Shown: positions 41,466 to 64,000 of the stretch, one piece after another | How positions within the stretch are numbered: the first letter of the stretch is position 1 | Layout: the number at the start of each line of letters is the position of its first letter | DNA from: Pseudisothecium myosuroides | Taxonomy: Eukaryota; Streptophyta; Bryopsida; Hypnales; Lembophyllaceae | NCBI GenBank assembly: GCA_951799445.1 | Contig: OX637287.1 | Location: 124,001 to 188,000, forward strand | Reading direction: 5' to 3' | Length of the DNA stretch: 64,000 nt | Notes under the pieces: generated by a model | Database searches by the model: none | The model's input: the letters and a program-made list of their open reading frames with translations, nothing else | Told to the model about the DNA's origin: nothing | Position numbers and translations under genes: made by a program

Positions 41466-41470
41466 TAAAA

Positions 41471-44311: not shown

Positions 44312-44326
44312 GACAGATATCTGCAG

Positions 44327-45529
44327 AACAGGAAGCCAACATTTTGTAAGTGCTCGTCATAGCGTTCATCATTTCTCTATTCAGCTCGAATCGAGCTGAA
44401 TGGGATAACCAATAGATATCAGAAGTCAACATAAAATGTTCACATACTCTTTTAAGGTGGGGTCCCTGTTCAACTGCGTAAAATACTACTCGTTCAGGGG
44501 AAAGGTAATAGACTGACCCTTAAAGTGAAGGACAGAAAATAGTATTTTGTACTGTAGAATGGTCAGATCCACAACTGTTGACATGAAAATATGTTGCGAC
44601 ATCATTCTGAACAACTGCAGAAATGAAAATAATATGGTCAATCCCTAAAACTGACAAGATCATATCAGCTCAATTCGAGCTAACCGACAGCCTCTGAAGG
44701 AGTCATATAGTCTTTTACATCTCTCTGTACTATAATGAGCTCAATTCGAGCTCATCGCACCTGACAGTCCATTCGTCTTTATATATACTAAATTCATTAC
44801 TTTTGCTAAAACAGAAAGAACTATAGATTTCTATTTTTCATAAATCATGTTACGCAAGCTTCTAGAATCAGCTCGAATCAAGCTGACCCACAGATGTGAG
44901 CTCGTGATGTACTCTTAATTTTGTGAATTCAGAATAATTCATTGGAAGTATATTAAGCTCGACTCGAGCTAAATCATATTCAGAAATTTCCAGACGTTCA
45001 TGATTATGTGATCATCATTAAATTATAGTAGTTTCACTAGGACACATTCAGCTCGATTCGAGCTGCCTCCTCAAGTACAAGAATTTAGAGTGGTCAGTCA
45101 ATCAGCTCGATTTGAGCTGATTAATCCCTTAAATTGCGGGACATTAAAATTAAATTCGCGATTCCGTAATTTTCGGCGCCAACATCGGAGGAACCATCAC
45201 CTCCACTTCCACAAACAATTCCAGAGACGGGGACATGCGATGCACGATGTTTCATTCAATTGTACACCATACTGTACAACACAAACTACAATCTCTATGG
45301 CACTCTCTCCACAGTGGACCCGTTTCTTGAACGCAATCTTTTCTCAGGACTGCACGCAGAGTCAAACGTAATCTGCAATCAATTCAAAAACAGAAATGGA
45401 GCCCGCAATGTGATGACAATAACTACATATGTTTACCGCGAGCGCTTGTGCAAATCGGAGATCCTCCTTCCAGGATTTGCCGGCCACGATATCTATCAAT
45501 GACAAATACACTCAATAATTGGACTACAC
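44327..45529 (-). other. Inferred 5'-leader intron of the DUF7869-type gene
   Basis: On the minus strand the acceptor TTCCTGTTCTGCAG lies just before the ATG. A possible donor, TTGCAG|GTGTAG, lies at 45529. The upstream sequence (45530-45700) looks like a leader (CTTCTTCACTCTTTCTTG). The intron is inferred from splice-like signals only. Confidence 0.4.
44383..45118. repeat. Cluster of seven AGCTCGA-N-TCGAGCT palindromes
   Basis: Copies at 44383 (centre A, perfect), 44667 and 44738 (one G-to-A change each), 44870 (one change), 44956 (centre C, perfect), 45050 (centre T, perfect) and 45104 (one C-to-T change). Spacings are irregular (54-284 bp), so this is not a tandem array. Outer bases often pair as well, e.g. 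TGAGCT/AGCTCA at 44738 and ATCAGCT/AGCTGAT at 45104. Confidence 0.93.
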
Positions 45530-45965
45530 CTGCAACTCAAATTGATCTGCTCGACCACAGAAAGGAAGAAGCCGACGCGCACACGAGTTGATCCAGACAA
45601 CAAGAAAGAGTGAAGAAGAATTTCGGAATAGTGGATGACGGCGTACAACCGGCTCACTCGCGGGAACTCGTGGGCGGGAACTGCATTGGAGTAATTTAAT
45701 TTTGAACGCTCATATTCCGATGGCGGCAGAAAATAGAAAATCACCGGATTCAGGGATGACTTTGTAGCTGCACAGCCAAAAAAAAGGAATCCAATGCCGT
45801 AGGTTGTAATTATGTCACTGACATTTTCGGATAATATTAGTTGGACACATTCCCCTCGCTTTTTCCTCAGAAAGGGTAATAACAACGATTTCGGATTATA
45901 TTTCAAACATGAATTTCGGATTTACAGGAGTTCGAAAATCATGACATTTAGTTTCGATTTTGTAC
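45530..45965 (-). promoter_or_regulatory. Likely promoter/leader of the DUF7869-type gene
   Basis: This lies upstream of the inferred leader intron. The minus-strand ORF at 45496-45906 has no recognisable domain and probably reflects leader sequence. No clear TATA box was found. Confidence 0.3.
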
Positions 45966-45969
45966 GGTC

Positions 45970-46004
45970 TTAGGGTTTAGGGTTTAGGGTTTAGGGTTTA
46001 GGGT
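45970..46004 (+). repeat. Interstitial telomere-like repeat, five TTTAGGG units
   Basis: Five head-to-tail copies of the plant telomere heptamer are present without mismatch. They adjoin a (CAAA)n tract and satellite-like DNA. Confidence 0.95.
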
Positions 46005-46053
46005 AACAAGCACACCCTCGCGAGATGCACGGTCCAAGAGATCTGAACGTGAC

Positions 46054-46146
46054 ATACAAACAAAACAAAACAAACAAACAAACAAACAAACAAACAAACA
46101 AACAAACAAACAAACAAACAAACAAACAAACAAACAAACAAACAAA
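46054..46146 (+). repeat. (CAAA)n microsatellite
   Basis: About 20 uninterrupted CAAA tetramers. The minus-strand ORF across it, with runs of CLFV, is an artefact of the repeat. Confidence 0.97.
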
Positions 46147-46149
46147 AGG

Positions 46150-48850
46150 TATGGATTGTAAAATACAGTACCTCTTTATCCCCTAAATGCCCAAGGCCTC
46201 TGTGTAGCTTCTTGAAGTTTGCTCTCAATTGAACAAAAAGTCAACATTTCATAAGTTGTACCAATTTCTTCTGAATTGTAACCTTACTAACATATTGAAA
46301 CTAGACATGTTACAGATCACATAGGGGGAAAAAACATAACAATATCACGTACAAATTGAAAGATTATAATGTTTGATCATGAGGGTGTTCAAACTAGGAA
46401 AAATTTTCAATTCTATTTTTGCATGTCAACTCTAAAAAGTTTGTCACTCCAAAAATATGAGGTTGAAGTGCGTAGCATGCACAACCACAATCAATTCATG
46501 ATTTTTTAAAATGTAGTCTACAATTTTTTTAAATGAATTTCGAAGGTCATTTTTCCTCAAACATCTACTGTATTTGAGGCTCATTTCGAAGAGCCTTCAA
46601 CACTACGGGAAGTCAATATTGCAACGGGTATGCTTGCACAAAATCTTGAATAGCAAAATCATAATCCTTCATTAATTTTTAGGATCAGCTCCTTGATCCT
46701 AAAACTAGATTTCAAAAACAGTAATTTTAAAATTTTAAACTACTAAAAATAGCAACTTCATTGGATTTCACTTGACTTCAAAGGTCTCGAAATACCAGAA
46801 ACTGGTGACTCGGGCATGTAGGGGATAAAAAAAAATCTGTCATGTACATTAAATAAATCCAATCCCATTAGTCACTATTGTGTCCTGTGATGTCGCCACA
46901 ACCAAATAAAGGGAGACAAGTCAATTTTAAAACAAAAAAAGGCCTCAAAAGTCTATAACTTCCCTACTATGATAAGTCTACGCACTACAAAACAAAGCCC
47001 GTGCTCCCCTCCTTGTCAAGGGCTTTCAAATGGTATTCTTTATGTGAAAATAAAAATATTTTGTCTAACTTCGGCCTTATTAATGTGACCCAAACATACG
47101 GTATGTGTATAAAATAATATAACTCATATTCTATTGAAGGTGATGTCTTTGATATTCTTTGACAATATTGTTAAAAAAATTTACCGCTGTGAAAAGAAAA
47201 TATATACAATTTAAATGAAAGATAAGCAAGTTCAAAATTCATGTGAAAAATGATGTGAACTATCGGCTTCTATTTCCGCTGCTGTGTGTTGCTATGCATG
47301 CACGCGACTTCCAAAGCACAGTCGACCACCCTACGAAAGTTATAAGCTTACGAACGAGGCGAAATTTAAATGTTCATCCCAATTGCTTATAGAATTCAAA
47401 TGGGTTACACATTTGGGCTCTCTCCTCTAAAATTACAAGGAGAACATCACATGAACACCCCCTTGTCCTTTGTTGTACTTCAATTTTAAAAAACTATAAA
47501 GCCATAATTAAAAATGGAACAAGGAGGATATTAACAGAAATATGTACAAGTTGCAATTGTTGGCAACATTTGAAATCTATGAGGTCCTCCAATTTTGGAC
47601 CTTTTTTCCTACATTAAGAGGGACAACAAAAAATAAATACCCATCATCATGCGCTGTAGTTTAAGTTAAATAAAACTTGAAAGTCATGAAATTAGAACGA
47701 GGAAGAAATAAAAATAATACGTAGAAGTTGCAATTGTCGGAAACATGTAAAATCCATGAGGTCCTCCAACTTGGGCCTTTTTTACCGACATTAAGGAGGA
47801 CCCTAAACCCAAAAAAAAATCCTTTGCTGTACACTGTATAACTAAAGTCATTTTGAAAACCAAAGAAGACCTCAAAAGTCTGACTTTCCCACCATACGTC
47901 CATCGCCGCACAATAAAGCCCACGCAGCCCTCCTCGTCAAGGGCTTTCGAATGGTGCTCATTATGTGAAAAATTTGCACACAAAAGACAATTAATTTAGA
48001 ATAATTATTTTATTAATTTAAAAGGACCAAAAAAAAATCAAATATTTATAATTTATGCATAAGACTTCAAGATGTTACAAAAAAAAGCCCGTACATCCCT
48101 CCTTGGTGAGGGCTTTCCGATAATACCGAGCACGTCCCCGGGAATGCACAGTTCGGGAGATCTAAATGTAACAAATAAAACAAAACTTACAATTGAAACC
48201 AAATATAAAAAAATAAAAGCCGAACTTAAGGACTGCTATGGATAAACTCTTTCAAGACGTGCGCCCTGGCCATAAAAAAATTTAAGTGTGTACATATTTG
48301 GAATGTTAACAAACAATTTGTATGCCCTGAGGTGCTGTTTTTCGAAGTCAATAGAAATATGAATTCATGAGAATTATTTCAATGAGCACTTTCAAATTCA
48401 ATAACTTTCACACCATACGTACAAACATCAAGAGACAAATTTAGTGCACCCCTCAGGCCTTGCAAACAGTTTTCAAAAAATACCCTCTACAATACAATCC
48501 GCACATGGTCCAGAAATTGAAGTTCACATAGCCTTACAATTGAAATACAAATAAATAGCTTCAATATTTTTTGAGATAATTAATATAAGTATTACTGAGT
48601 TAGGTACATATCATCTACAAATCCGGAATTTTATTGCTTCCCACTTTCTTTGCATTGTACTTTACGTTTGGGTCAGATTCGTTAAAAATTAATTCAATAT
48701 ATAATTATACATGGCATGCAATGAATTTTTCAAAAATTACAAATAATATGGAATATTTGAAATGTGAAAAATGTTGAAGACAATATTCTAAATCCTCAAC
48801 AAAAGAAACTATGAAAATGAAAAATGAAATAAAAAACAAATACCCATCCG
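46150..48850 (+). repeat. Diverged satellite-like DNA with larger repeated blocks
   Basis: A block with AAGCCC..TCCCTCCTTGTCAAGGGCTTTC recurs near 47000, 47920 and 48085; within it AGCCC and GGGCT can pair. GAATGCACAGTTCGGGAGATCT near 48142 resembles GATGCACGGTCCAAGAGATCT near 46022. Two diverged copies of the 176-bp unit lie at about 47515-47850. No gene is supported. Confidence 0.6.
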
Positions 48851-48852
48851 GC

Positions 48853-49730
48853 TTTGCTGTACTTTAAATTAAATAGAACTCTAAAGTCATGACATTGGAA
48901 CGAGGAGGAAATATAAAAATATGTAGAAGTTGCAAATGTAGGAAACATTTGAAATCCATGAGCTCCTCCAATTTGGACCTCCACTTCTAAAATTAAAAAG
49001 GAAAACAAAAAACAAATACAAGTCATCCTTTGCTGTACTTTAAAATAAATAGAACTTTAAAGTCATGAAATTGGAATGAGGAGGAAATATAAAAATATGC
49101 AGAAGTTGCAAATGTGGGAAACATTTGAAATCCATGAGCTCCTCTAATTTGGACCTCCACTTCTAAAATTAAAAAGGAAAACAAAAAACAAATACCGGTC
49201 ATCCTTTGCTGTACTTTAAATTAAATAAAACTTTAAAGTCATGAAATTGGAACGAGGAGGAAATATAAAAATATGTAGAAGTTGCAAATGTGGGAAACAT
49301 TTGAAACCCATGAGCTCTTCCACTTTGCCCCTTTTTTTCTTAAATTAAAAAGGAAAACAAAAAACAAATACCGGTCATCCTTTGCTGTACTTTAAATTAA
49401 ATAAAAGTTTAAAGTCATGAAATTGGACCGAGGAGGAAATATAAAAATATGTAGAAGTTGCAAATGTGGGAAACATTTGAAATCCATGAGCTCCTCCAAT
49501 TTGGACCTCCACTTCTAAAATGAAAAATGAAAACAAAAAACAAATACCGGTCATCATTTGCTGTACTTTAAATTAAATAAAAGTTTAAAGTCATGAAATT
49601 GGAACAGTGAGGAAATATAAAAATATGTAGAAGTTGCAAATGTGGGAAACTTTTGAAACCCATGAGCTCCTCCAATTTGGACCTCCACTTCAAAAATTGG
49701 AAAGAGGAGCAAAAAAAAATACCGCTATTT
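48853..49730 (+). repeat. Tandem satellite, 176-bp monomer, five copies
   Basis: TTTGCTGTACTTTAAATTAA recurs at 48853, 49029, 49205, 49381 and 49557, exactly 176 bp apart, with high identity through GAAGTTGCAAATGTGGGAAAC and CCATGAGCTC. The last unit decays near 49730. Antisense ORFs of 60-77 codons are repeat artefacts. Confidence 0.95.
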
Positions 49731-49734
49731 AAGT

Positions 49735-51160
49735 AAAGACATCCGCTGCTGTAGGTTGAATAACTAAAAAATGTAGAGCCATTAAACATGAAATATGACA
49801 ACTCTTATGCTATGAAATATAATATTTTCCTTTTGAATCCATTTGAACTTCTTCTGTCCGCAAAAAAAAAATTGGGAATGAAATGTGTCCTATATTTTAG
49901 TTGCCTTGAATATGAGTTGTCATGGATTCGTTTATGTGAATGCTTTATTTTTATTCTGAAGGAAATTTTACCCAATCATTAGAACTTTTGTAAATTAAAA
50001 AATAAAGACCATGATATATTACTATGTTCATGAATCCTACATGAATGTTTATATCATTTTGAACTTCTATACTTTTTCCTTACACAACCCTATATCAAAT
50101 TTATCACTTCTTTCTCTTAAATTTTTTGAAATACAACAGAAGGTCAATTGTTTATTAGACTCTTTTAGTAAATTAAGAAATGTAGCCAATGATTATAGTG
50201 TGCTTTTACAACTACACTCAATCTATGAATAATTTCCAACTTCTATATTCTATTTTGAACACTGAAGCATACAAACTTGATGATTTGTTTTTCAGTTCTT
50301 TCAAATACAACACTTTAATTAGAATAAATTTATTTTTGCTTCCTCTTATAAATGAAAAAAATTAATACCGTGCACATACTACATATAATAAAAATGGTTA
50401 TTCATGGTTGTTTTTATAATTGGAACGCCTCGGTACTATACAAGTAACTCTAGGAATTACCAATTGGGTCTCCTTTTGCATATATTATGGAAGACAAACA
50501 ATTTTAAATTTAGGCCAATACTGTTATTCAATGTGTATTGCAATTCTATCCCAAATGTGTTTAATGTGCAAAGTACTTTTACATCAAATAAATTAGCATT
50601 AGTTGTTTTCAAGAAATTAGTGGATAGTGTCACTGATTATCAGTAAACAAACTTTCTACGGTCAACAAGTAGGTGTTCAAGGGTGACAGATTGACATTCG
50701 GATCCCTATCAAATTTACTAGGGATTTGAATGTGCTCCATACAATACATTGTTAAATTACATTCAATAAGTCATGAGAATTAGGGTGCCTTATACCAAGA
50801 AATATATACTTTTCCAAGCCATTAACGTGAATAAAGAGTACTGTAGATACTTCAATTTCTGTGGCTGCAGGTTTATGATATAATTACATCAATATTTAAT
50901 TCAAAAGTACAACGTACTTATATATAATAATATTGACCTATTTATGGAATGTCAATTTCAAGAAGAAAAATTAGCTCGCTTGTGTAGGATGAACTACACA
51001 AAATAGTGAAACTAAATTGCCTTGACAATTAGGTTGCTGTACTTCCAGAAAATTACTTTACAAGAAATTAAAGTCAACAAATCTTTCTACAAATCTTTTT
51101 GTTTGTATATTATATGGAGGTTCATTAGTCCCAATTACAACAATACTTAATTCCGAAGTA
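49735..51160 (+). other. Very AT-rich DNA with broken frames of unknown origin
   Basis: Plus-strand frames at 49788-49982, 50011-50232 and 50404-50646 encode Phe/Tyr/Asn-rich sequences in AT-rich codons, separated by stops and a frame change. They could be the remains of one gene, but I recognise no family and the composition alone favours such frames. Confidence 0.2.
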
Positions 51161-51279
51161 ATCTATTTTTGTCGAGGAACAATAAATGTTTTTATAGTGT
51201 AGACTGTCAAGAAATTTGTAATGGGCAACCTAATTTCACTATTTTGTGTGGTAGAGTGAAGCTACTAGAGTTTAGGGCA

Positions 51280-52222
51280 ACGTTTGGGCTTGGTGTGGTT
51301 CAGGGCCGGTTATCAATGGAGAAGGCGGGTATTGAGAACTGGTTACAAGTAGGGGATCAATCGTGGTCGGGCGAGTATCAACCGGATATCTGGTGTGAAT
51401 CGGGAAGAGGGCTAGGGTTTAGTAGATTTGTGGTTAGGGTTTGGCGCTCAGTTTTGTCAGCTAAATTTTCTCGCGTCTGCGCTTATCGTTTCTTGAGATA
51501 TCGTTTTTGTTTGTCGTTTCTCCCTGTTTGCGCGCGCGCCTGAGTGATTGAGGAGCGTGGATTCCGTTCGATTTTGGAAACCTGCAGCGCCAGTGCGACG
51601 ACGGAGGTTCAGGCGCGATTTGAGCTTCTGAGCTGACGACGGAGCTTCTTCCTGACGGTGACAGCTTGGTGCGTTGAAGCTTCTTCATCGCGGTGACAGA
51701 CTCTTGTTTCGAAGTTGGAGTGCGAGGACGGAGGTTTAGGGTCACGGTGACAGCTTGGTGAGTTCCTCCCCATCTTGATTTTTTCCCTCTTTTTTCCTCT
51801 GTTACTCTCATCTCCAGTACTTGCTATTTTGTATTAGAATTTGTTTTGGATGGAGGTTGTGGTGGCGGGAGGTTGAGCTTGCATTCAGCAAGTTATGAGT
51901 GGGGATGTGTTTCTAGGGTTCGGTGCGATCTTCTTTATTTTGCTTTTCCAGTCGTTGCAATTGTAAAATCGAGGGGTGTGAGTGAGTCCAGCAGCATGTT
52001 CCAGTGAGCCTTCGTCTGGCTGAGGTTTGCTTACCCTGAATGTGGGAGTTCCCTGTCAGTCCCAACTTTAGAGCCGTGTTGAGGACCTCATTAGAAGCGA
52101 TGACTAACTTTCTGTTTGGTGTTGTAGCCTGCAGTGACGACTACTGGGTTTGTATCCGATTTTGATCTCGTGAAGCCGTCTCGTGAAGCCGGGTCGAGGG
52201 AATAAGTACCGTGGAGTTTACG
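51280..52222 (+). promoter_or_regulatory. Promoter and 5'-leader exon of the ParB/methyltransferase-like gene (inferred)
   Basis: GC content rises here. The sequence ends in a strong donor, TTTACG|GTGAGT, at 52222/52223, and a matching acceptor CATGCTGCAG lies at 53751 just before the ATG at 53753. Between about 51560 and 51750 a related phrase (GACGGAGGTT..., GGTGACAGCTTGG) recurs. The leader exon boundaries and transcription start are inferred. The plus ORF at 51169-51543 has no recognised domain. Confidence 0.4.
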
Positions 52223-52848
52223 GTGAGTTTGTTCTCCTGAATTGTGAATTGCTCTTGAATTGTGCTTTGCTTGATTGGTTCTTGAAGATTGTTTGTTGGA
52301 AATGCATTTACAAATTCCAGAGTTTGCAGTTGCCTAAGATTGTTGTTGAAAAGTATACGTTCTTAGGGTTTCCACAGTTTCATGTTGCTGGAATGCTTGC
52401 AGTTAGTAGGCTTCATAAGGAATGTAGGTGATTAGGGCTTGAGGGCTTAGTAAAGGCTGCATTCGAAGACATTCTAGTTCTCATGTGTAGTAATGCCATA
52501 GATATGTGTGACTGTGGGTTCTATTAGTACCGAAAGCTCTGAATTTGAGCCTGGTTCAGTTCTTTAGGTCCAAATGAAAACGTGAATGTAGTACTAGTGG
52601 TGTTATAATTTTAAATTTTCGCCTACAGAAGGATTATGGCATGTGCTTGGATTACGCAAGTTGTGTTTAGAATTCACATTCAGGATTGTGTTGGGGTTCT
52701 GGTTTGTCATGTCTGTAGGGTCTAGTTAGGGTTGGGGTTAATTGTGCTTAAAGTCTGTAGGGTCTGTGCAGGGTCTGTGTAGGATTTGTGTCGATACCCC
52801 TGTTCAAGGACCCCCCTAGCTTCAAAGAGTGAAGCTCGAAGCACATTT

Positions 52849-53710
52849 AGCTCAAGCCGAGCTAAATTTCAGCAACCTAATTTATGAAATTAACTCGACT
52901 CAAGCTAAAATCAACAAAACCTGGCATGAAAACACAGAAAACGCCCATATAAAATCCAGGACACCCTGAAAATCAGCTCGAATCGAGCTAATTTGAAGCA
53001 AACATATAATAAATCACCCATTTAGCTCGACTCGAGCTAAAAGAAAAAAGATTATAAATAATAACCAGTAAAAAAATCAGAATAAGTAAGCTCGAATCGA
53101 GCTAGGAGAACAACATTGTAAAATATTAACAAAAAATAAATTGAGGAGAGGAAGTCAGGAGAGTGCTGAACATAAAACAAAGCAAAAAAAGAGCCAAACG
53201 GACAAATGCATGCCGAGGGACACGGAGAGATTCAGCTCGACTCGAGCTGAAGAGGAAAATAACTCGAGTTAAGGGTTAAATAGAAACAAATCAATTAAAA
53301 AGAATGAAGAACTAACTAATCAAGAAGTAATAAGGTGACTATGAACCTCGACTAGCGGTTAAATCAGAAGAGCCCACCTTATCAGCTCGACTCGAGACAA
53401 ATACACAAGACGGGAAGAACATGAAAACAAAAGAAGAAATGAACACGAAAGCTCGAATCGAGCTGAATAATTTAACTCTCAGAAAAAAGATAAAGACAAA
53501 AAGCCAAATCCATAACAACCTAAATGACAAGGCGAATGCGAAAGATAGACATGAATAGGGCAGCTAGAAAGAAGTCAGCTCGATTCGAGCTAACGGGACG
53601 GCAGGGTAGAAGCAAGTGCAGAACGAGGGGTCTGTCATTCCAGGAACTGGAAATTTATGACGAAACATGTGTGGCAACTGCGAGGTTGAATATTCAGCTC
53701 GATTCGAGCT
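52849..53710. repeat. Cluster of eleven AGCTCGA-N-TCGAGCT palindromes
   Basis: Perfect copies at 52975, 53024, 53089, 53234, 53450, 53577 and 53696; degenerate copies at 52849, 52892 and 53384; and a short partial (AACTCGAGTT) at 53261. Centres are A, C or T. The copies at 53024 and 53234 extend to perfect 21-bp palindromes with different outer bases (TTT/AAA and TTC/GAA). All lie within the inferred leader intron 52223-53751. Confidence 0.93.
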
Positions 53711-53752
53711 AGCATCGTCTTTAAAGCTAAGCAATGGTTGTCATGCTGCAGG

Positions 53753-54310
53753 ATGGAGAGTCAGGTCAAGAAACTCTCGCACTACTACAAGAAGTCCGAG
53801 GTCCAGCGAGTGGAAGACGAAGGGGAAGGAGATGACTTTCTCAATGACGGAGAATATTGGGAGTTCGTGTATCTAGAGAAGGTGGATAGCTGAACTCTCC
53901 TGATAATCCCATGCTCTGAGCAAATCTGCTTTGCCGTGAAATATAAAGGGATGGACACCTACCTCCCTCTCTCATACAACGAACGAATAAAAGACGTTGT
54001 GGAGGACGTCTTCCCCACCATCAAGGTCCACTGTGTAACAACCCAGAACGACCTTCCGGCAGACAAGCAGTACAACTTCACGCTGCACTTCGACTCTCGT
54101 TTAATTCCCTTCCACGTGACCCATTTCATGGAGTCCCTGTCGATGACGTCGTTCCAGGATAAAATTAAAGAATTGGAGGAGAAGGTGAATGAGAAATACT
54201 TCCAGAAACCTAATGGAGAGCCTCTCAATAGTCGGAGGCTATGTGCTAAAATCCGAGGTCTCTTCCAGGACTTTGCGGTGCTCAGAACGAAAATCCAGCT
54301 CGACCGTTAG
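53753..54310 (+). pseudogene. N-terminal part of the ParB/methyltransferase-like gene, with in-frame stops
   Basis: ATG at 53753 follows a CTGCAG acceptor. The frame encodes an acidic Lys-rich start (MESQVKKLSHYYKK...EGEGDDFLNDGEYWEF), then a TGA at 53891-53893. The same frame continues through SEQICFAVKYKGMDTYLPLS and a helical Lys/Glu region to a TAG at 54308-54310, and then runs on into the next segment with no frame change. I do not recognise a domain here. A 40-nt intron could remove the TGA (AAG|GTGGAT to CTGAG) but would be unusually short for plants. Confidence 0.5.
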
Positions 54311-55198
54311 AGCAAGGCGGCTAGGAGCGTCTCACTGAACGCCGGAAGCCAGGGGCCCAATCAGGTGTCTATTGACAACCAGACCCAAGGGCAGACATCT
54401 CGAAGGGGCACGCGCAACAAGCAGCCGACGGAAGCTCCAAACGCTCCACTTGCGAAGAACAATTTGGCTAGCACATCAGCGGCAAAAACAGCTGAGAAAA
54501 TTGGAGAGCACTCTGCTGTGGACGATATAAGCCAGGACATGAGTATCGTCCCAGAGTCGCTGCAGACAAACCGGAACCCGGACTACGAGGAGTCCAACAA
54601 GGCGTACAAGAATTTCTGGAAGACCTGCGCTGATGTGTTTCTCTACAAGATGGAGAAGAAGGAGCTCACAATTGACAAGCTGATCCAGGCTCCGGCGTCA
54701 TTAAATATCCGGAGCAAGGAACAGACGATCATTGAGGGCTTGATGCACTACCTGTGCAATATGCTCGACCACAGTCACCGGCAAACGCTCTGCGTCATGC
54801 CGACGAAGAAGCCAACCAGGGAAGGAGACGACTCGTGGTCCGAGATCAAGGACGGGGAATTCTACATCATCAACGGCCAACACAGTGTCTGGGCCAGCAA
54901 GTTGATGGAGGACCCGAAGTTCAACATCGACCCGGCCACGATCCAAGACTTCAAAACCTGGAATTGCTACATTGCATGGACTGAGGACAGGGAGACACTC
55001 CGTTCAATTTCGGCCTACTTCAACAGAGTGAACCATTTCCAAGCGATTCAGCCGTCGTGGGCCACTAACATATTGGGCGCCCGAAATGTCTGGGAGGAGA
55101 TGGGGTCACCACACAACCCGAAAGAGGACACCGAAGCCGGAGCTGTCAGCAACGCGAGGCACACTAAAGCTGCCTTTGAGAACAAGAAGAAGTGGACG
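54311..55198 (+). pseudogene. ParB-like domain segment
   Basis: The frame continues from the previous segment, passing a Ser/Thr/Gln linker (TQGQTSRRGTRNKQP). A compact domain follows, with EGLMHYLCNMLDHSHRQTLCVMP (read in part) and EFYIINGQHSVWASKLM. This last phrase resembles the D-G-Q-H-R..A motif of ParB/Srx-like and DGQHR-type domains, with Asn for Asp and Ser for Arg. It then continues to ISAYFNRVNHFQAIQPSW. The exon ends at a clean donor, TGGACG|GTAAGT. Known ParB-family domains bind nucleotide and act in DNA partition or as nucleases. Assignment here rests on one motif and its hydrophobic context, so it is tentative. Confidence 0.45.
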
Positions 55199-55287
55199 GT
55201 AAGTGATTCAGCTCGAGTCGAGCTGAACTACGCTATGCTGGCTACTGTGAATTAGTTGCTGACTGTTTGGTCATAACCTTGTCGCAG
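55199..55287 (+). other. Intron 1 of the ParB/methyltransferase-like gene, with palindrome
   Basis: Donor GTAAGT at 55199 and acceptor CTTGTCGCAG ending 55287; both phases are 0. It contains the perfect palindrome at 55210 (centre G, extended to 21 bp). A second perfect copy at 55291 lies three bases past the acceptor. A later acceptor (TATATGCAG at 55344) also fits phase 0 and would place both copies inside the intron. Confidence 0.6.
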
Positions 55288-57091
55288 ATCAGCTCGAATC
55301 GAGCTAACGAGGATCCTGACATTGGTTTCCCGTTCTATATGCAGGAATTCACTAAGGCCATGCAGATGCGTTTTTCTATGATTGACGTTACGAAATCGCA
55401 TCAGAAGTCCAAAGCCAAGGACTCAAAAGGCAACACCTCCATCACGAATGAGATTAGGCTCATCATTGCTCCTGCAGAGGTGTTCAATCTCTGGAGCAAG
55501 GTCATCTCCAGTGCTGCGCATGGCGAGCTCATTGACGCGGACTCCTTGAAGAAATTCAATGTCAAATCGTCCTGGAAAACCGAAAACGGGATGCTGAACA
55601 AGGAATTCTTCAAGTTCTTCGGAAATCTCACGAACGAAGACCTCATTGTGCTCGCCAACCACATTCTGTTTAGAGATGGTGATAAGAAGATGCATCCGCA
55701 CCCGAAGGTGACCATTAAGCAGTCATCGTCAGTCCTCAAAAGTTGTTACGCTGCGAAGGATTGGATTGAGAGGCGCAAACGGAAGGCGTTTGTGAAGAAG
55801 GAGTTGAACAAGATTGATCCGTCCTTGGGTCTGCTGAACGCGGTGGGGGAGCCTGTCCAGGACAAGTGGAAGGACTTCAAGAAGAAGTACAACGTCACCT
55901 CCGCAACGCTGAATGTACTCTTGGAGCGGCCCGGGGAGGCCTTCTTCTCCGAAGTGAAGCAGAAGAAATCAAAAAACAAGTCCACGGAACAAATTTCGGA
56001 CCAGGCAGCCGAGTTCTTCAAAGTCTTCCTTAGTCAACGGAAGAATTTCGTCCCACCGTCGGCAGTGGCACACTACGCACCATACGACATTGCAAAAGAC
56101 CACCACGCTCAGTGGCCAAGGGGTGCGTGGACAGTTGACAGCCCTGCAGATCTCGGGCTCGGTGTTATCGATTTCCGGTACATTCCGGGGGTGCTTTCCA
56201 AGAAGGACGGGACTATCGCAATTCCGTACTTCAGCACCGTCATCGTGTCTTTGAGAGGGAAGCAGCAGCCGAAATTTGAGGACGTCCCGGCTTGGCTTTT
56301 TATATGCGCGGACATGCAAGAGCAGACGCAGGTGATCGCCTTCGTGGAGAACAACGACGTCCTTAGCACGTACAAGTGCACGTTCGCGGACTATATATCG
56401 AGACAGTACGAGCGGATGGGGGACATGGCCTCCGCCAAGGCGAAGTCGCACAACAAAGTGCTGCTGACGTTTTTGACGAGTCCGTCGTGTACGAGGGGTG
56501 GCGACATTCCGGAGTTTTTTCTGGCCCCGGACACTGATACGTTCAATAAGCCCCGGGGATACAACGAGTTGGAATTCCGGCTCTACAACACGGAGCTTCG
56601 CATGGAATTTTATCTGTGGGTGATAAAGAAGTTCTGCTCTCCCGGAATGAGCGTGTTCTCTGTCTTTGCAGGAGGAAAAGTGACCTGTGCAACAGTGGTA
56701 AGTTTCCCTAAAGTTCAATCAGCTCGAATCGAGCTGATGTACCACATCCGTTTGTTGTGTTTCCTTGTGTTCCGATAAGTGTGACTCTTGCATGATCCGA
56801 TTCGTTATGGAACGAATTAGCTGGACTCGTTCTGAGTCGCCGAGGGGTTTAGCTCGAGTCGAGCTGAAGCCACTCTGTATTCTCAATACTGACGTCTTGT
56901 GATAATTTCTTAACATGCAGATGAGTTCTGTGAACGTCTGGGCGGTTGGAGTTGCCAACGATACGGGGTTCTGGAATGATATTTCCCTGGCGGCCATGAA
57001 ACTAGACAGGGCCGACTTTCTGGAGGGGGGATATAAGGTGTCGACGTCTTCGCGCAAGAAGCCTCCGGTGTCTCAAACGACTCCGTCGTAG
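55288..57091 (+). pseudogene. Possible degenerate beta-class DNA methyltransferase-like segment
   Basis: Exons 55288-56697 and 56921-57091 join in phase 0 across intron 56698-56920. The first part (NEDPDIGFPFYMQEF..., long Lys-rich middle) is unrecognised. Near the end, LLTFLTSPS sits where a DPPY-type motif IV would be, and RMEFYLWVIKKFCSPGMSVFSVFAGGKVTCAT then matches the order of motif X and motif I (..P.Q.P..L...I..F..PGD.VLDPFAGSGT..A) of bacterial and phage N6-adenine/N4-cytosine methyltransferases, followed by VNVWAVGV. DPFAGSG has become SVFAGGK and DPPY is lost, so activity is doubtful. A TAG at 57089-57091 interrupts, with the frame continuing. Fusions of ParB-like and methyltransferase domains are known from phages, which fits the neighbouring segment. 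Confidence 0.45.
56698..56920 (+). other. Intron 2 of the ParB/methyltransferase-like gene, with two palindromes
   Basis: Donor GTG|GTAAGT and acceptor TTAACATGCAG. It contains perfect palindromes at 56721 (centre A, extended to 21 bp) and 56851 (centre G). Removing it restores the methyltransferase-like motif. Confidence 0.75.
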
Positions 57092-57937
57092 TCGCGGAAG
57101 AGGAAACACTTGCCCTGGGATTCGCCATCCACTGGGCGGCGCGAGAAGGCGCCAGCTGCAGAGCCAGAAGTCCTCTCCGACGACGAAGGCGACGATCAGG
57201 ACTTCTATGTCCAGCAGGTGCTGGACGAGCAACTTGTGGTGAACGCCAGCAATCCGGTTCCTCCCACTCCGACGGAACATCGGGGGTCGTCGGCCTCGAG
57301 CGGTCACGTGCAAGAGGAGCAGCCCTTAAGCACGCCTTCGTCTGCCGTCACGCCAAAGAAAAGGAAGTTGTCGAAGCGGGACGAATACATAGAGCACAGG
57401 TTCGCGGAGCTGGAGCGGAGACAACTGGAGGATCGCGCGGCAAATCTACAATTCCAGTACCAGCAGAACACGAGGATGGATAAAATGCAGACGTTCATGT
57501 CGGTGGATTCTGCAAACAACACCGACAAGCTGGACTCGATCATCAATCACTTGAGGGGTGCCAGACCGCTCTCCTCATTTGAGCCCCCGACGTCGAGGCC
57601 GCAGCTGCTGCTTGAAGGTCTGTCTCCCTCATCAAGCGATGTGGCTCCATTGGAACCACCGGGTCTCCCTGAGTTTGCTGTTCCGGCACCTCCTTTGCCC
57701 CCACATCCTATTCCCCCTCCGCCCCCGCCATCATCAGCTGACGCAGAGGCGGCTCCTGCCGACGCACAAGCGGCTCCTGCCGACGCACAAGCGGCTCCTG
57801 CCGACGCACAAGCGGCTCCAATCCTTCCAGTCCCGGGAGGTGCTGACGAGCAGCATCCGGTGGAACAGCCGGCGCAGTTAGATCTGCAAAGTCCCGCGGT
57901 GCCTAGCCAGGACTTGGGCGCAGGTGCTCCTCAATAA
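57092..57937 (+). pseudogene. C-terminal coiled-coil and Pro/Ala-rich tail of the same gene
   Basis: The frame after the TAG at 57089-57091 continues unchanged: basic SRKRKHLPWD, an acidic segment, PKKRKLSKRDEYIEHRFAELERRQLEDR (read in part; a nuclear-localisation-like PKKRKL followed by a coiled coil), a proline-rich stretch and four copies of ADAQAAP-type heptamers, ending at TAA 57935-57937. A 54-nt intron could skip the TAG but is very short. A nuclear DNA-associated protein is a reasonable guess. Confidence 0.5.
57735..57820 (+). repeat. 21-bp in-frame repeat (GCTCCTGCCGACGCACAAGCG)
   Basis: The unit GCTCCTGCCGACGCACAAG plus CG recurs about four times, giving A-P-A-D-A-Q-A in the protein tail. 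Confidence 0.9.
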
Positions 57938-57962
57938 TCACTCGATGTCACTTGTACAGTTT

Positions 57963-57977
57963 AGCTCAACTCGAGCT
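57963..57977. repeat. Palindrome copy (one mismatch)
   Basis: AGCTCAACTCGAGCT, centre C, lies between a possible donor (GCGCAG|GTGCTC at 57923/57924) and an acceptor TGTCGCAG ending 57994. It may therefore sit in a 71-nt intron followed by a 6-nt exon and the donor GTAAGT at 58001. Confidence 0.85.
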
Positions 57978-58129
57978 GATTTTTGCTGTCGCAGCATAGA
58001 GTAAGTGAATTCTCTGTTATACTCCCAAAAACCACTTTAAAGCATAACAAAATGACTCTAAAGATCAAACCCACGAGATTCTGTGAAGTGTCTAGCTCTA
58101 TTCCCAACTTAAGCTCAGCCAGTCTCCAA

Positions 58130-59220
58130 TTTCTACTTTCCGGTCCTAGATCTAAAACCGGAAACAACGACACACCGAAAACAACGACCAGACCTCTCTC
58201 TATTTCTTCCGGTCTGTCAAGCTATTCGGTCCGGTAATCCTACCACAACCCAGGATTCTACAACTTCTGATCCTGGCACTCCCCTGGACCAATCCGATCC
58301 GGTCCTCTCAGACGTATTCTCACTCCACTACGGTTTAGTTTTGCCTCTGTTTCACCATCAGAGGGTTCGCCGCTTGCTTTTGAGAGTGGCAGGCCCGCCA
58401 CTCCTTCCGTGACTTATAGTGGCTAAAGATCCACTTCTCTAATCCACTACTTCCTACACTAGCGCGGATCCGGTTTGATCTCTCACAGCCACCCGGATAG
58501 CGATCCGGTTTGCAGGTCACACAAAGACCCCCCGTACGATCCTCTCATACTACAACGACCTTGATGCCAGGTTCCCTCCGTGCGAAGTTAGGTGGTTACA
58601 AGCAAACTCGTCCGTTCCAACATCAACTAAAGTCCTTCCGTTTATCAACTAGGGCAGCGAGACCTCACGGGAGGTCGGACACTCCACCGGATTTCCTATC
58701 CAGGAGTTCTAGCGCGACTAAGGACTCCTTCCCTATCCGCCTAGCCTAACAACGGTTTTCTCGCCCGGAATCGTGAACTGTAGAGGCGCTGAGGAACTGA
58801 AATCCGCTCCCAACACTTAGAATACCCACTCACATGCACATAAGAGCAAAACAAACACACCAAGGGGAGAAATCTCTCTAGAATCTGCACACATTTTCCT
58901 AACTCCTCACCAAAACAGCCCTGCCACGCGCGGGAGAGACGTACAACAAGAAATCAATAGAAAACGCACAAAAACTCAAGGGAAAAGACTCTTAGTCTCC
59001 TTTGCAAAGACTGACTATATACATTTAAAACTCAAAAAGTCAACATAAAGCGGCCCGGAAAGTCCGCGCGGAACTTTCGGTCCCCGCCGAGCCGGCCAGA
59101 CCGGAAAACATCCGATCCAGACCAGACACATCCGGATCAAATCCGGTCCGGTCCTAACTAACAAATATTTACAACTAAAATCCTAACTATCCTATCATAA
59201 CCGGATCTACTCCTTGATCC
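58130..59220. repeat. Dispersed ATCCGGT / ACCGGAT words, left flank
   Basis: Examples near 58140 (TCCGGTCC and, 20 bp on, ACCGGA), 58292, 58466, 58492-58510 and 59100-59155 (TCCGGATCAAATCCGG), plus GATCCG half-words. Orientation and spacing vary. Further copies follow at 61260-61400 beyond the ORF. Confidence 0.65.
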
Positions 59221-61013
59221 GTTCCTTCGTCCATGACTTTGTCTTCACCTTGGTCCACGCTCTGATCTTGATCCTCACCCTGATCTGGGGTTAGATCCAT
59301 ACTTTGATCTTTCCCCGGGTTCAGTGTGGGACTTCTGGGTGGGTCCGTTCCAAGCTGCTCGAAGACGTCCGTCAAGTTCCGGTTCTGCTCCCCTGTTTCA
59401 CGTTCTGGGAGATCCGGTGACGAATCCAAGTTGATGGTGTGCGCGAGCTTCCTCCCACTTTTCTTTGACTGGGGAGTCCGATCCTTTCCTTCCGTCGGAA
59501 TGACCACGTTCGGAAAAGACCCAGGCATTGAAAGGTCGGACAGATGGAACGACCGTGACAACGTCACTCCGTTCAGCTTCCTGCTGCTCTCCTCCATCCG
59601 GTTTGCAGCCTCTCGCGCTTCCATCATGACTAACTCCACCTTCTCGGAGTAGTCCGTCAAAATCCGGACCAACCTGGTCCCGGATATTTTATTCTCCTTG
59701 AGGACTCCCTTGTCAAACAGCTTTGACTTGGTGATGGCTTCTCCGGTTGCTCCGAATGTAGCCTTCACGTCCTCCGCTACTTTTCGGGTGGCTTCTGCCA
59801 TCTCCCGAGTGGTAGCCATGTCCTCCTTGAGGAGCAACATTTCCGTCTTCAACGACTCGTTCTCCTCTTGGAGTCGTCGGATCTCCGCTTCTTGCTTCCG
59901 GATCTCATCCGGGCTGGAGATGAAATCTGCAACCACCCCCACCAGGTTGCTGTCTGCTGGTGCTGCCACCAGCTCGCTGATCTGGTTCAGAATCAGCTTC
60001 TTGACTGTCCAGTCTGCTCGCACATCGCTCAGGATGTTGATCAGCTGGTTGAACGGATCCGTCGGATCCGATCCGGAAGGACCCGGTTCTTCAGAAACCG
60101 GTTTCTTCCCTGGGTTGGAGGTCTCAGCCGGAGGGGTTGGGGTTCCTCTCCGGTGTGGAGGCGACGTCTTCTGCCGCTTGTGCTGCGGCCGGAGTTGCTC
60201 CTCCTCCTCCTCTTCTTCCTCCTCGGAACCGGATACTTCTTCCTGTTCTTCTTCTTCTTCCGATTCCCCATACTTCAGGAGCGACTCCTGCTTCTTCCAC
60301 TCCTTCTCCTCCGTATCCGTGAGGAGTTGATTGTGCTTGTATAGATGGACGAGGTAGGGACTCAACGGAGTCGGTCTACTTCCTCCGATCTTCGGAATCA
60401 GACGGTTGACCAGATCGAAAAGGATCCTGGCCCAATCTACTTTCCGTTCCCCGCTCAGGGCTCCGAAAATGAGGTTCCCAATGGCGATGGTCACCCTCGT
60501 TGGCTTGTCCGGGTGGATGATCGGAACCAGGAACTGTAGGAGGTTCCGATGCCGGTCGTCCAGGCAATCCGCGACCGCATGCCCATCCTTGGAGTCTACG
60601 TCGCTCCGGAACTTCCCCCGAGTGTAACCCTCTTTTGAGGATGCCATCCCTCGCCCTCCGGACCGGAATCCGTACACGGCCTTCCACATTTCTTCCGTCC
60701 AACTGCTTAGAATTTCGCGGATGGTCTTGTCGAACTGATTTGAGAGTTTGCCCAACAACTCTCGAATCATCCGCTCCTCCCTAAACCCCCAGGGTTTATC
60801 GATCAGCCCTCCGCAACCCATCTTGGCAAGATCCTCTATCAGGTTGTCCTTTTCCTTCTCTTCTACTGGAATAATCGGACACACCTTCCGGAGTTTCACT
60901 TCTAATGTGGAGGAACTGGACGGCCCTGCTCTACTCTTGCGGAGCTGAGGCATGGACACGAACTGTGCTAACCGGATTCTGACTGAGGCTACCTTTCCCT
61001 CTCCTAGCCGCAC
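59187..61013 (-). CDS. Transposon-associated protein (gag-like or Transposase_32-like)
   Basis: Intact frame of 608 residues. The N-terminal half includes CLDDRHRNLLQFLVPIIHPDKP and VTIAIGNLIFGALSGERKVDW. This arrangement recalls the putative plant transposon protein domain, where a hydrophobic '..FL..ll.PT.h.s.VT..rA.L...il.G..i..' stretch occurs. Then come an acidic Glu run, a basic QHKRQK segment, a Pro-rich linker, a predicted coiled coil (QEAEIRRLQEENESLK) and a DQGEDQ-type repetitive tail. Function is unknown; a structural or DNA-binding role in an element is likely. It is antisense to the host locus, and the start was chosen as the first ATG downstream of the TATA box. Confidence 0.55.
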   Translation of the reverse strand: MRLGEGKVASVRIRLAQFVSMPQLRKSRAGPSSSSTLEVKLRKVCPIIPVEEKEKDNLIEDLAKMGCGGLIDKPWGFREERMIRELLGKLSNQFDKTIREILSSWTEEMWKAVYGFRSGGRGMASSKEGYTRGKFRSDVDSKDGHAVADCLDDRHRNLLQFLVPIIHPDKPTRVTIAIGNLIFGALSGERKVDWARILFDLVNRLIPKIGGSRPTPLSPYLVHLYKHNQLLTDTEEKEWKKQESLLKYGESEEEEEQEEVSGSEEEEEEEEEQLRPQHKRQKTSPPHRRGTPTPPAETSNPGKKPVSEEPGPSGSDPTDPFNQLINILSDVRADWTVKKLILNQISELVAAPADSNLVGVVADFISSPDEIRKQEAEIRRLQEENESLKTEMLLLKEDMATTREMAEATRKVAEDVKATFGATGEAITKSKLFDKGVLKENKISGTRLVRILTDYSEKVELVMMEAREAANRMEESSRKLNGVTLSRSFHLSDLSMPGSFPNVVIPTEGKDRTPQSKKSGRKLAHTINLDSSPDLPERETGEQNRNLTDVFEQLGTDPPRSPTLNPGKDQSMDLTPDQGEDQDQSVDQGEDKVMDEGTDQGVDPVMIG

Positions 61014-61658
61014 GTCCCGTTTCTCACCTTCGCTCTTCCGATCTCAACCGGAATACCTCTAAACCTGCAACACACGCTAAAGCGCTGCGCGCCCTAACAC
61101 ACTAACACGCACCCACAAACACAAACACAAAACAAGAAAGCAGAGCGCTGGGAAGAGGAGCTAAGTACGCGCTGGAGCAAGATTTTCGCAAACAAAGATT
61201 GAAAAAGAGTGGCCACTGGATTGGTCAGCCTATATATAGTCTGACCAAATCCGTTTCTGACCCAATCCGATCCAACTCAGATCCGCTCCAACTCTAATCC
61301 GGTTTAGATTCAGATCGAATTCGGATTGTCACTTATTCCGTTCCGTAGTTAATTTCCGGTTATCAGTTACCTTCTGCTCGAATCCGGATCCCAGATCACG
61401 GTTTCCGTTCCAAGATTTAGATAACTTACAAAAATCCAAAAATTTGCACTGCGACATTTGCCATAGGTTGTATGTAGTTGTATGTAGTTGTAGTCCTTTT
61501 CGAGAGAATACTATCATTTTGGTAAAACGGAGCTTCCAGTGGACTGAACCATGGAGTTCACACATTTTGCAGTTCATTCATGTATTTATATCTCATTTTA
61601 TGAGGCTCTAATATACAGATTTCTCACGAATATTTTCTTGTGCATTTGTGGCATGCAG
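61014..61658 (-). promoter_or_regulatory. Promoter and leader of the 608-codon gene
   Basis: The minus strand carries TATATATA at about 61231-61238, roughly 220 bp upstream of the ATG, between GGTCAG and CTGACC arms. ATCCGGT-type words cluster at 61260-61400, just upstream of the TATA box. Confidence 0.5.
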
Positions 61659-62909
61659 GCACTGCAAATATTGTAGATTCTGTTTCTCCTCCCGTCCCAG
61701 ATCCTGTGAATACTACTGCTCAGCCTGTGCTTGGTCCGGTGGAAAGTGATCAGACCAATCCCATTGAATGCAATGTCCTCGTGGCCGTCCTTGAACCTGG
61801 ACCGTCCACATCTCTTACACCGGTCGCAGATGACGTTGTCATCTCAGATGCGGACCTGCTGGAGGTTCGCATTCCAGAGCCGGCCTTCGTGGCAACAGAT
61901 GCTTCCGTGGAGACTGGAGAGGCGTCGCAGCAGAAGGTATACATCATGCTGCTCATTTGGAACCTTTTGGGGTACTGTTTTTGTGTGTGCATTTTCGTTT
62001 TAAGAATGATTTGGTCAACTCAAACATGAGCGTGCCCGTCATTATGCGTGAAGTTTTAAATGTGCCAGTACAGGGTAATAACTGGCTGCACATTTGTCTA
62101 TTGTCTAGCAGGAATCCGGTCCTTCTTGTGATGTAGGAGGAATTTCGGAGGCAGTCCATCGTCCATTGACGTCCAGGGTGGTGGAGAAGTGGATCAACGT
62201 CGTCCTGGACCTCAATGGTATATTATGTGTCTGCGAAGATTTGAAGTTTAAGGATTGGTCAAAACGCATCCCCGATGCTGTTCAGCCGCACTCGGCTATC
62301 AATCCCGCCGTAGTGGGACCCAAGCTAGTTTACGTTCGCCCAGGATGTTCGGAGTTCCTACGTCAATTAGGTAGGATTGCATCCATTTCTGTGTGGAGCT
62401 CGATGAAGAAGTCCACCACCAAAGAGGTAGCGAAGTATCTCTTCGACGGACTGGATAGGCCTCTGCTGATTCTCGGACAGGACTCCTGTAAGACGCTTAA
62501 GTGCAGAGATAGGACGGGAAGACCGTCGACGTACAGGGAGCCAGGCACGGAGAAGGAGTTGTTCCTTAAGAACCTAAATAACCTGTTCACTGGCATCCGG
62601 GGTAGATTCAGTGCTGAGAACACAATCATCGTGGACGATAGTCCAAATAAACACATTCTCAACAGCCCTGAGAACGTCGTTTTGCCTGAGACGTGGACAA
62701 ATAGGGGACATGGTCCAAAAGACACGTTTCTCCTGGAAGTCCTGCTGCCTTGGTTTCAGGGCCTGCACCTAGCTTGAGAGGAAGGACTGAAGGCGTTTAG
62801 GGGAACGGCGGTTGCTAGAATTGGTCGCCGGATGCTCTGCGACGAGAGAAACCATCGGGAATACGACAAGCTGATGGAGATCGTCACAGCGTCGCCATTT
62901 ATTCGATAG
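61659..62909 (+). pseudogene. FCP1/SCP-like HAD phosphatase domain, one in-frame stop
   Basis: Exon 61659-61936 (Pro/Val/Asp-rich, GTANIVDSVSPPV...) ends at CAGAAG|GTATAC. Exon 62112-62909 begins after TGTCTAGCAG with ESGPSCDVGG and encodes the HAD core: VVLDLNGILCV (nucleophile Asp; second Asp replaced by Asn), VRPGCSEFLRQLG, ISVWSSMKK, LLILGQDSCKT and TIIVDDSPNKHILN (motif IV), then LLPWFQGLHLA. A TGA at 62775-62777 follows, but the frame stays open as EEGLKAFRGTAVARIG to a TAG at 62907. The DLNG form is known from a plant HAD subfamily related to CTD phosphatases. The missing second Asp makes catalysis uncertain. The exon phases allow it to be the 3' part of the upstream ParB/methyltransferase-like gene. 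Confidence 0.75.
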
Positions 62910-62976
62910 AACTAGAGTGAGGGGTTTGTAGCTTAGGACGTACGGATGTGCGGGTATTTAGATTCTTATGTAATTC

Positions 62977-63108
62977 AGCTCGAATCGACCTGATTTGCAC
63001 ATTTGGAACTGCCTGATGGGTTGCTTTCTTTTTAATCTAGGAAATAAAAATATTATTCTAAAGTTTTGCGTCGTGCACTCTGTGCCTCAATTTAGCTCGG
63101 ATCAAGCT
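62977..63108. repeat. Two degenerate palindrome copies
   Basis: AGCTCGAATCGACCT at 62977 (one mismatch) and AGCTCGGATCAAGCT at 63094 (two mismatches). They lie in the non-coding stretch between the HAD exon and the exon at 63223, like the other intronic copies. Confidence 0.8.
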
Positions 63109-63222
63109 GATTTGTTTGTTGCTTTTGGCTACGTGATTTCTGCATGTACGGATGGTTGCTGCTTAGAATGTATGGCGTTACCTGTGCTTTGTTAATATGT
63201 TTTTCCTGATACTTGATTCTAG

Positions 63223-63858: not shown

Positions 63859-64000
63859 GGTCTGTTCATATTGTAGATTGAGTGTCTATAGGTACATGCA
63901 TGATAGCATTGTGTAGATATTATGTAGAACTCAAGTGCTAGAGTGAATCACACTCATGACAATTATATACGTTTCTCTGGTCTTTTAAGGATCGGAAAGC

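Follow-up and report, generated by a model that had tools for sequence, protein, structure and literature searches.

To our knowledge, few transposons bring along a protein and a matching motif of their own with which to resist silencing by the host; VANDAL of Arabidopsis is the worked-out example. There, VANC21 binds a short motif in the introns and in the intergenic and terminal non-coding regions of VANDAL21, where the motifs form tandem repeats (PMC5735166); the VANDAL/VANC anti-silencing system is also covered in PMC10398659. The moss transposon described here resembles that system in that its own non-coding regions, introns included, repeat a short motif, and this motif too forms tandem repeats, in Physcomitrella. 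It differs in that (i) the motif is a 15-bp (often longer) palindrome, as opposed to the 9 bases of VANDAL/VANC, (ii) the proteins are different as far as tested, those of the moss having been compared with Pfam profiles, and (iii) binding and demethylation have been demonstrated for VANC21, whereas for the moss system binding is proposed from sequence. A multi-copy moss element with a conserved intronic palindrome is a possible second, unrelated case beside Arabidopsis VANDAL, and one that is testable in moss.

Sola2-type transposons offer a further comparison; PMC3627910 describes cases with terminal inverted repeats (TIRs) of 12-13 and 21 bp and one 888-aa transposase. The moss element has the 4-bp target-site duplications (TSDs) and short TIRs given there for Sola, and shares the capture of accessory proteins, but it is 23.3 kb long with a different accessory gene, and the comparison drawn here is one of ends, protein size and accessory genes. 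The exact palindrome appears in the literature in PMC6302065, on Physcomitrella satellites, and in PMC9638941, on AcrIF24. In the former, the tandem repeat unit Pp01_31 contains AATCAGCTCGAGTCGAGCTGATT and the same palindrome spans the unit junction of Pp08_44; both are reported as satellites, the passages of that paper concerning them draw no link to a transposon, and the word stem 'palindrom' is absent from its main text. Searches with shorter pieces of the palindrome returned this satellite paper alone as relevant among the matches listed, and searches for Physcomitrella palindromic motifs or moss ParB-like elements returned nothing relevant among theirs. So far as these literature searches go, the palindrome system has not been described before.

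The whole stretch of DNA analysed (the window) is 64 kb long. A reading made from its letters only had listed 14 perfect and 10 near-perfect copies of AGCTCGA-N-TCGAGCT and none in the first 44 kb. Pattern searching recovered these 24 sites, all within 44383-63108 (no mismatch, n=14; one, n=6; two, n=4), with four further sites at three mismatches (30918, 51612, 56819 and 57528); the first 44 kb contain no site at up to two mismatches, 30918 being the sole match of any grade. At up to three mismatches, the 28 sites observed compare with 1.36 in the dinucleotide-shuffled window (largest value 5), and the 20 kb adjoining the window at each end hold no site at up to two mismatches. The features are as follows, in window positions.

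40924..40927, no strand: left 4-bp TSD, TGAC; the right TGAC directly follows 64227
40928..64000 in the window, no strand, right end at 64227 (L116:227): dispersed DNA transposon of 23,300 bp in all, of which 3.47 kb were inserted later
40928..40948, forward: left TIR, 21 bp, a perfect match to the right end
41471..44308, reverse: open DUF7869 protein gene, 945 aa from the ATG, candidate transposase
44383..45118, no strand: palindrome cluster 1, upstream of DUF7869 (44383, 44667, 44738, 44870, 44956, 45050, 45104)
52849..53710, no strand: palindrome cluster 2, upstream of the methyltransferase-like gene (52849, 52892, 52975, 53024, 53089, 53234, 53384, 53450, 53577, 53696)
53753..55198, forward: methyltransferase-like gene, exon 1, with two in-frame stops in the window copy (homologues P0147, L079, L102)
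55199..55344, forward: intron 1, with palindromes 55210 and 55291
55345..56697, forward: exon 2; residues 238-451 correspond to the beta-class DNA methyltransferase fold
56698..56920, forward: intron 2, with palindromes 56721 and 56851
56921..57937, forward: exon 3, with one in-frame stop near its start in the window copy
57963..57977, no strand: palindrome in intron 3 or the gap ahead of the NIF exons, without mismatch in the C1:9.03 Mb copy
57987..61456, no strand: later 3.47-kb insertion into intron 3, which the C1:9.03 Mb copy lacks
61659..61936, forward: putative exon 4, from splice sites and L079
62112..62777, forward: NIF (NLI-interacting factor-like) phosphatase exon
62977..63108, no strand: palindromes 62977 and 63094, 3' of the NIF exon

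The element is a DNA (class II) transposon, as given by its TIRs, its copies at unrelated sites and its target duplications. Left-end matches number at least 40 at 95-100% identity (40 of 118 candidates scored; a lower bound), and the 22 left ends read (the window, L137 and 20 others) all start exactly at AACATT; L152 and L159 have near-identical flanks, while those of the other copies read differ. The TSDs rest on two copies with both ends read: that of the window, and one flanked by TTTA/TTTA with ends at C1:9.007 and 9.039 Mb, which we took as a single copy interrupted by other DNA. Exact ends and 4-bp duplications in two copies would suit transposase-binding or recombination sites required for movement, but every palindrome is internal, none coming closer than 3.5 kb to the left end or 1.1 kb to the right one, and we regard such a role as improbable. 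CpG observed/expected is 0.87 across the element, compared with 0.60 and 0.75 in its flanks, as expected if the element is young or less methylated.

Among six element ORFs (in ten proteins searched), DUF7869 and NIF alone passed the Pfam cut-off, and a PHROGs search gave weak hits of unknown function and nothing else. As to a possible DDE/D transposase, DUF7869 has invariant D and H residues in alignment. Its AlphaFold model is weak (pLDDT 61); Foldseek returned no match to it at E<=0.001, and a second look at the same weak model gave small barrel-type domains at both protein ends. A sequence search of the PDB produced two matches at E 1.2, and our literature search found no publication on DUF7869.

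Genome-wide, the 388-Mb moss genome holds 688 perfect palindromes, versus 0 for the reversed control; divided among at least 40 left ends, they give each element about 17 at most. Placement covers 50 of the 688, all within the initial 32.3 Mb of contig C1, the other 638 being counted only. Three element copies account for 47 of those placed (16 of them assigned by position and spacing, in the copies' middle parts), an element fragment for one and a diverged relative for one. With 49/50 placed sites so located, the earlier claim that the palindrome is carried by a mobile-element family tied to the DUF7869 and methyltransferase-like genes was right. The remaining site, C1:12049705 (locus L140), lies among five palindromes in a partly repeated stretch that shares no sequence with the element and includes the form AGGTCGA/TCGACCT. 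Binding sites commonly consist of palindromic half-sites around a short spacer, and this form, together with the L140 cluster outside the element, would fit sites of a host transcription factor exploited by the element; against such a factor stand the 49 of 50 placed sites within element copies, fragment or relative, and the empty first 44 kb and 40 kb of flank at up to two mismatches, so that we consider it rather unlikely.

The placement also bears on the proposal that the palindrome itself is selected and is not one copied sequence. Within this genome the outcome was the one named beforehand as speaking against it, nearly all mapped copies belonging to one longer dispersed repeat, the 23.3-kb transposon. 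The proposal survives because the palindrome recurs in other mosses, in introns that are otherwise dissimilar. In a second moss, 19/19 sites in three contigs are non-coding and at corresponding positions (judged by eye from frames and splice sites), and in introns 1 and 2 of both mosses the first palindrome begins 11-28 bases downstream of the donor, while beyond it the window introns show no likeness visible by eye to those of L079 and L102. Database homologues agree: among the 32 intron-2 read-through tails of at least 8 residues, from 58 homologous proteins, the motif follows the donor in 7/32 by strict peptide patterns and in 20/32 by a relaxed pattern that was widened after some tails had been seen, and the strict patterns occur 10 times in 95,998 residues (8 in tails, 2 in N-terminal extensions). 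In these sequences the palindrome is conserved and its surroundings are not.

Decay of the sites points the same way. As the sequence-only reading had suggested, CpG transitions are prominent, making up 8 of 14 mismatches. Cluster 1 without 44738 recurs at C1:9.02 and 32.30 Mb as six perfect sites with the spacing that they have in the window; 44667, 44870 and 45104, imperfect in the window, are perfect in two other genomic copies, and the mismatches that distinguish them are CpG transitions. Sites 44738 and 62977 are imperfect in all copies read and worse outside the window copy. Because an element copy, once inserted, degenerates through CpG transitions, sites that are intact in different mosses imply that they are renewed or selected. 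A small palindrome multiplying itself by tandem slippage or mini-insertions, and persisting functionless in introns, would account for the tandem arrays of Physcomitrella (PMC6302065) and for the five palindromes in the partly repeated stretch of L140; such passive hitchhiking is nevertheless very improbable in our view, given conservation in corresponding introns of different mosses that by eye are otherwise dissimilar.

We lean, on balance, towards a symmetric (dimeric) DNA-binding protein in the transposon's service that docks at the palindromes. Retention of the palindrome in the same non-coding gaps of other mosses makes it the probable docking point for a protein controlling the element, and the same reading is supported by a core that is fixed on both halves, the centre-adjacent pair included (kept in 23/24 on each side), around a centre base that, as claimed, is free (A9 T6 C6 G3 among 24 sites). 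Each half-site would read AGCTCGA; a single unconstrained base separates the two halves, and the outer arm is looser. Its positions are the long non-coding stretches of the element, namely upstream of both genes, in introns 1-3 and 3' of the NIF exon, presumably since coding exons leave no room; cluster 1 perhaps lies in a 5' UTR intron, because a 3' splice-site-like CTGCAG precedes the DUF7869 ATG. The expected avoidance of exons was borne out, 0/24 window sites falling in coding exons although these make up 38% of the element, but this could stem in part from coding sequence not tolerating palindromes, whatever their role. A concentration in the non-coding DNA of an element and rarity elsewhere (0/24 exonic; 49/50 placed) is also what characterizes VANDAL/VANC-like motifs. 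For binding work the palindrome sequence is AGCTCGANTCGAGCT.

Against the docking reading stand the following: (i) L140 has five palindromes without element sequence, (ii) the window copy of the methyltransferase-like gene has three in-frame stops and its protein has DFRxxP in place of DPPY, and (iii) the second moss shows co-variation of the outer arms, required by a hairpin but not by a fixed binding site. Co-variation of the flanks had been claimed for the window, where it is weak; it is clear in the second moss. The shuffles behind these comparisons leave relatedness between sites in place: in the window, 77 pairs at positions 8-14 compare with 66.3 shuffled (P=0.027) and 52 at positions 10-16 with 47.0 (P=0.20), while in the second moss 104 at positions 8-14 compare with 79.6 (P<0.00025) and the outer arms at positions 10-13 are paired in 47/64 versus 36.8 (P=0.0014). 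After removal of three same-gene sites and two related ones, positions 10-13 of the second moss are still paired (41/56 versus 31.1, P=0.0028), but the pairing does not hold at positions 14-17 (22/56 versus 18.2, P=0.14).

Co-varying arms favour RNA hairpins, in which palindromes within intronic and untranslated pre-mRNA would fold as short stems with a 3-base loop and affect splicing or RNA stability. Stems of -8.7 to -14 kcal/mol are predicted in the 7 sequences folded, and it would also agree that in both mosses introns 1 and 2 have their first site close to the donor. The centre-adjacent pair, however, would be unpaired in the loop and yet is as fixed and complementary as the stem; core letters are fixed and not compensated, except in the AGGTCGA/TCGACCT of L140; and some sites lie far upstream and downstream of the coding exons. 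Hairpins are accordingly unlikely.

If the palindromes are docking sites, the binder would most likely be encoded by the element, with the methyltransferase-fold protein as first choice. The earlier label 'ParB/methyltransferase-like' stands in its second half: the exon-2 part has the fold of beta-class DNA N6-adenine/N4-cytosine methyltransferases, a fold now given to that part of a moss gene family unnamed by our Pfam and NCBIfam searches. Its catalytic (D/N/S)PP(Y/W) motif is absent; the first strand of the fold, assigned by eye, has D276, R278 and P281 (DFRxxP), of which D276 is invariant in 24 aligned rows and R278 and P281 are kept in at least 90%. Compared with the beta-class enzymes CcrM, M.BceJIV and RsrI, the moss family, known by sequence and fold, has 10-15% identity and by eye altered DPPY and SAM-site motifs. 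The ParB half is unsupported by profiles, with no Pfam match to that family at E<=1 (P0147 among 9 proteins) or E<=10 (4 proteins) and no NCBIfam match at E<=10 (4 proteins; sequence profiles).

Binding would likely let the element regulate its own expression or its chromatin, for instance so as to escape silencing in the way that VANC proteins allow VANDAL transposons to do. Tentatively, and as a possibility we hold to be doubtful, the methyltransferase-fold protein with its altered catalytic motif may recognize the GANTC-centred palindromes in the non-coding gaps and so mark element DNA or shield it from host silencing, protein and palindrome being kept together across mosses. If true, an anti-silencing system comparable to VANC would have evolved a second time, independently, and its reader or writer would have a methyltransferase fold.

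Outside mosses, scanning bacterial and archaeal genomes with a 17-mer retrieved 66 stretches, of which 64 have a single perfect site and the other two are moss contigs binned with a cyanobacterium; scanning viral contigs with a 15-mer retrieved 36, with one perfect palindrome each. At up to two mismatches nine non-moss loci hold 2-3 sites (viral L006, L011, L012 and L034; bacterial L044, L050, L053, L066 and L081), which we take as chance in GC-rich DNA. A viral link was also sought in IMG/VR, where pattern scans for the two proteins returned 163 and 7 stretches and no relative among them. By eye, the INGQHS box resembles ParB. Within mosses, the two Physcomitrella satellite repeats may, we suggest, be offshoots of transposon binding sites.

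A conserved palindrome array within a large moss transposon is well supported here as a real feature. A pattern scan of the window for the 15-bp palindrome AGCTCGANTCGAGCT returned 14 perfect copies and 10 with one or two mismatches, spanning 44383-63108, while shuffled sequence yielded approximately one match with up to three mismatches allowed. At two mismatches or fewer, neither the initial 44 kb of the window nor the adjoining 20 kb at each end contains a site, which confirms the sequence-only reading that 14 perfect and 10 near-perfect copies are confined to one part of the window. A genome-wide search for perfect copies recovered 688 palindromes (388 Mb, 222 contigs) versus 0 for a reversed control.

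The element carrying these sites is a DNA transposon of approximately 20 kb, the window copy (40928-64227) reaching 23.3 kb because of a later 3.47-kb insertion. It contains a DUF7869 gene, a methyltransferase-like gene, and a NIF phosphatase exon, together with the following features:

45969-46005, telomere-like TTTAGGG repeats, close to an (AAAC)n run
47435-49817, tandem array with a 176-bp unit
57987-61456, the later insertion in intron 3 (3.47 kb), missing from the C1:9.03 Mb copy
59187-61043, minus strand, ORF of 618 aa inside the insertion, with no Pfam match above cut-off

The inverted repeat is 21 bp long and begins at 40928 on the left; its right-hand partner extends to 64227, which is 227 bases beyond the window, and TGAC adjoins this copy on both sides. 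Using the first 393 bases as query, at least 40 matches were obtained, each of full query length and 95-100% identity, a lower bound given that 40 of 118 left-end candidates were scored; together with the inverted repeats, these matches bear out the earlier proposal that the palindromes travel on a mobile element. All 20 other left ends that were read start at the same base, and the flanks of left ends differ, save for two loci (L152 and L159) with near-identical flanking DNA. Contig C11 (16.9 Mb) carries 10 of these 40 scored left ends (P ~6e-6) and contig C6 carries 9 (P ~0.003), perhaps reflecting a sex or repeat-rich chromosome.

The spacing of the first site cluster (0, 284, 487, 573, 667, and 721 bases, from 44383) recurs for six of the seven sites at two other places on contig C1, which also share much of the second cluster (52849-53710) with slightly shifted spacing. 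Alignment of the fetched parts of these two copies, by which the element ends were defined, gave 2.6-4.8% divergence. TTTA abuts two further ends, a left one at C1:9.007 Mb and a right one at C1:9.039 Mb, which we take to be those of a single copy broken by other DNA within the DUF7869 gene. Alignment of the C1:32.3 Mb copy ends at window position 57836, and its right part is therefore absent or displaced. Genomic placement covers 50 of the 688 sites, all within the first 32.3 Mb of C1, the other 638 being a count only. Three element copies hold 47 of the 50, including 16 in unfetched middle parts that were assigned by position and spacing; the remainder comprise one in an element fragment (L141), one where the sequence is 77% identical to the surroundings of the first cluster (L134), and one in a 2-kb stretch that shows no similarity to the element (L140). 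This last stretch, which appears partly tandem, carries five palindromes at 902-1232, two of them of the doubly changed form AGGTCGAATCGACCT.

As had been anticipated, the palindrome avoids exons: coding exons contain 0 of the 24 sites, though they make up 38% of the element (chance ~9e-6 assuming independent sites, which clustered sites are not). Sites instead occupy sequence upstream of the two genes, introns 1-3, and the stretch downstream of the NIF exon.

DUF7869 matches bearing organism names were all from mosses: those of Physcomitrium patens were 62-68% identical across the aligned part, and those of Ceratodon purpureus 45-62%. Scanning bacterial and archaeal genomes led to two matching contigs in a desert-crust 'cyanobacterial' MAG (AVDCRST_MAG81), which resemble moss DNA and contain the same intron-containing gene. 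The moss-like contigs binned within this public MAG are:

L079 and L102, palindrome contigs with the methyltransferase-like gene
L103, palindrome contig with the 5' part of a DUF7869 gene

These three contigs account for every one of the 13 perfect sites in the assembly. At two mismatches or fewer they hold 19 sites (8, 8, and 3), all non-coding with positions judged by eye: ahead of exon 1, within introns 1-3, past NIF, and upstream of DUF7869. The first palindrome of intron 1 and of intron 2 starts 11-28 bases downstream of the donor in both mosses. Protein-database relatives of exon 2 (58, of which 32 continue past it in a tail of 8 or more residues) were predicted with the intron read through, and agree with the intron palindrome position. 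The exact translated palindrome occurs in 7 of the 32 tails, and in 20 when one or two changes are permitted; since the relaxed pattern was widened after some tails had been seen, the strict count alone is clean. Strict peptide patterns occurred 10 times in 95,998 residues, 8 in read-through tails and 2 in N-terminal extensions. According to passages of PMC6302065, two Physcomitrella satellites (Pp01_31 and Pp08_44) contain the same palindrome.

The array belongs with element-specific motif arrays, a known type, and the mechanism considered here is an unproven, testable candidate. A symmetric protein dimer would dock on the palindromic DNA, which fits better than an RNA hairpin because the core is fixed on both sides, the centre base is free, and the pair beside the centre is fixed; a hairpin loop would contain that centre-adjacent pair. 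Co-variation of the outer arms, seen in the second moss, is compatible either with a hairpin or with half-sites changing together. The binder of such a dimer model would be dedicated to the element and probably encoded by it, a host factor being less likely given that almost every site with a genomic placement is part of the element. The nearest worked-out precedent in the material consulted (passages of PMC5735166; abstract and outline of the follow-up PMC10398659) is the Arabidopsis anti-silencing protein VANC21 on the transposon VANDAL21.

Most mismatches had been read as CpG transitions. Several window sites have decayed in this way and are intact in other copies; two window sites are worse in the other copies. 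The CpG ratio of the element is high, 0.87 versus 0.60 and 0.75 in its flanks, which fits youth or low methylation without telling them apart.

Outside the element, the window contains:

6302-7174, DDE_Tnp_4-kind transposase carrying an in-frame stop
14673-18098, minus strand, PPR-DYW-type gene (class by eye), 1141 aa, long and intronless, with many near-identical repeats
26931-27177, self-complementary stretch of 247 bp, foldback or MITE-like
33675-37412, plus strand, PPR-DYW-type gene (class by eye), 1245 aa, likewise long, intronless, and with many near-identical repeats
39880-40108, self-complementary stretch of 229 bp, foldback or MITE-like

Sequences resembling the inverted repeat (2-4 mismatches) also occur in the flanks, at L117:4951 and at L119:3773-3974, where a pair approximately 200 bp apart is perhaps a non-autonomous relative.
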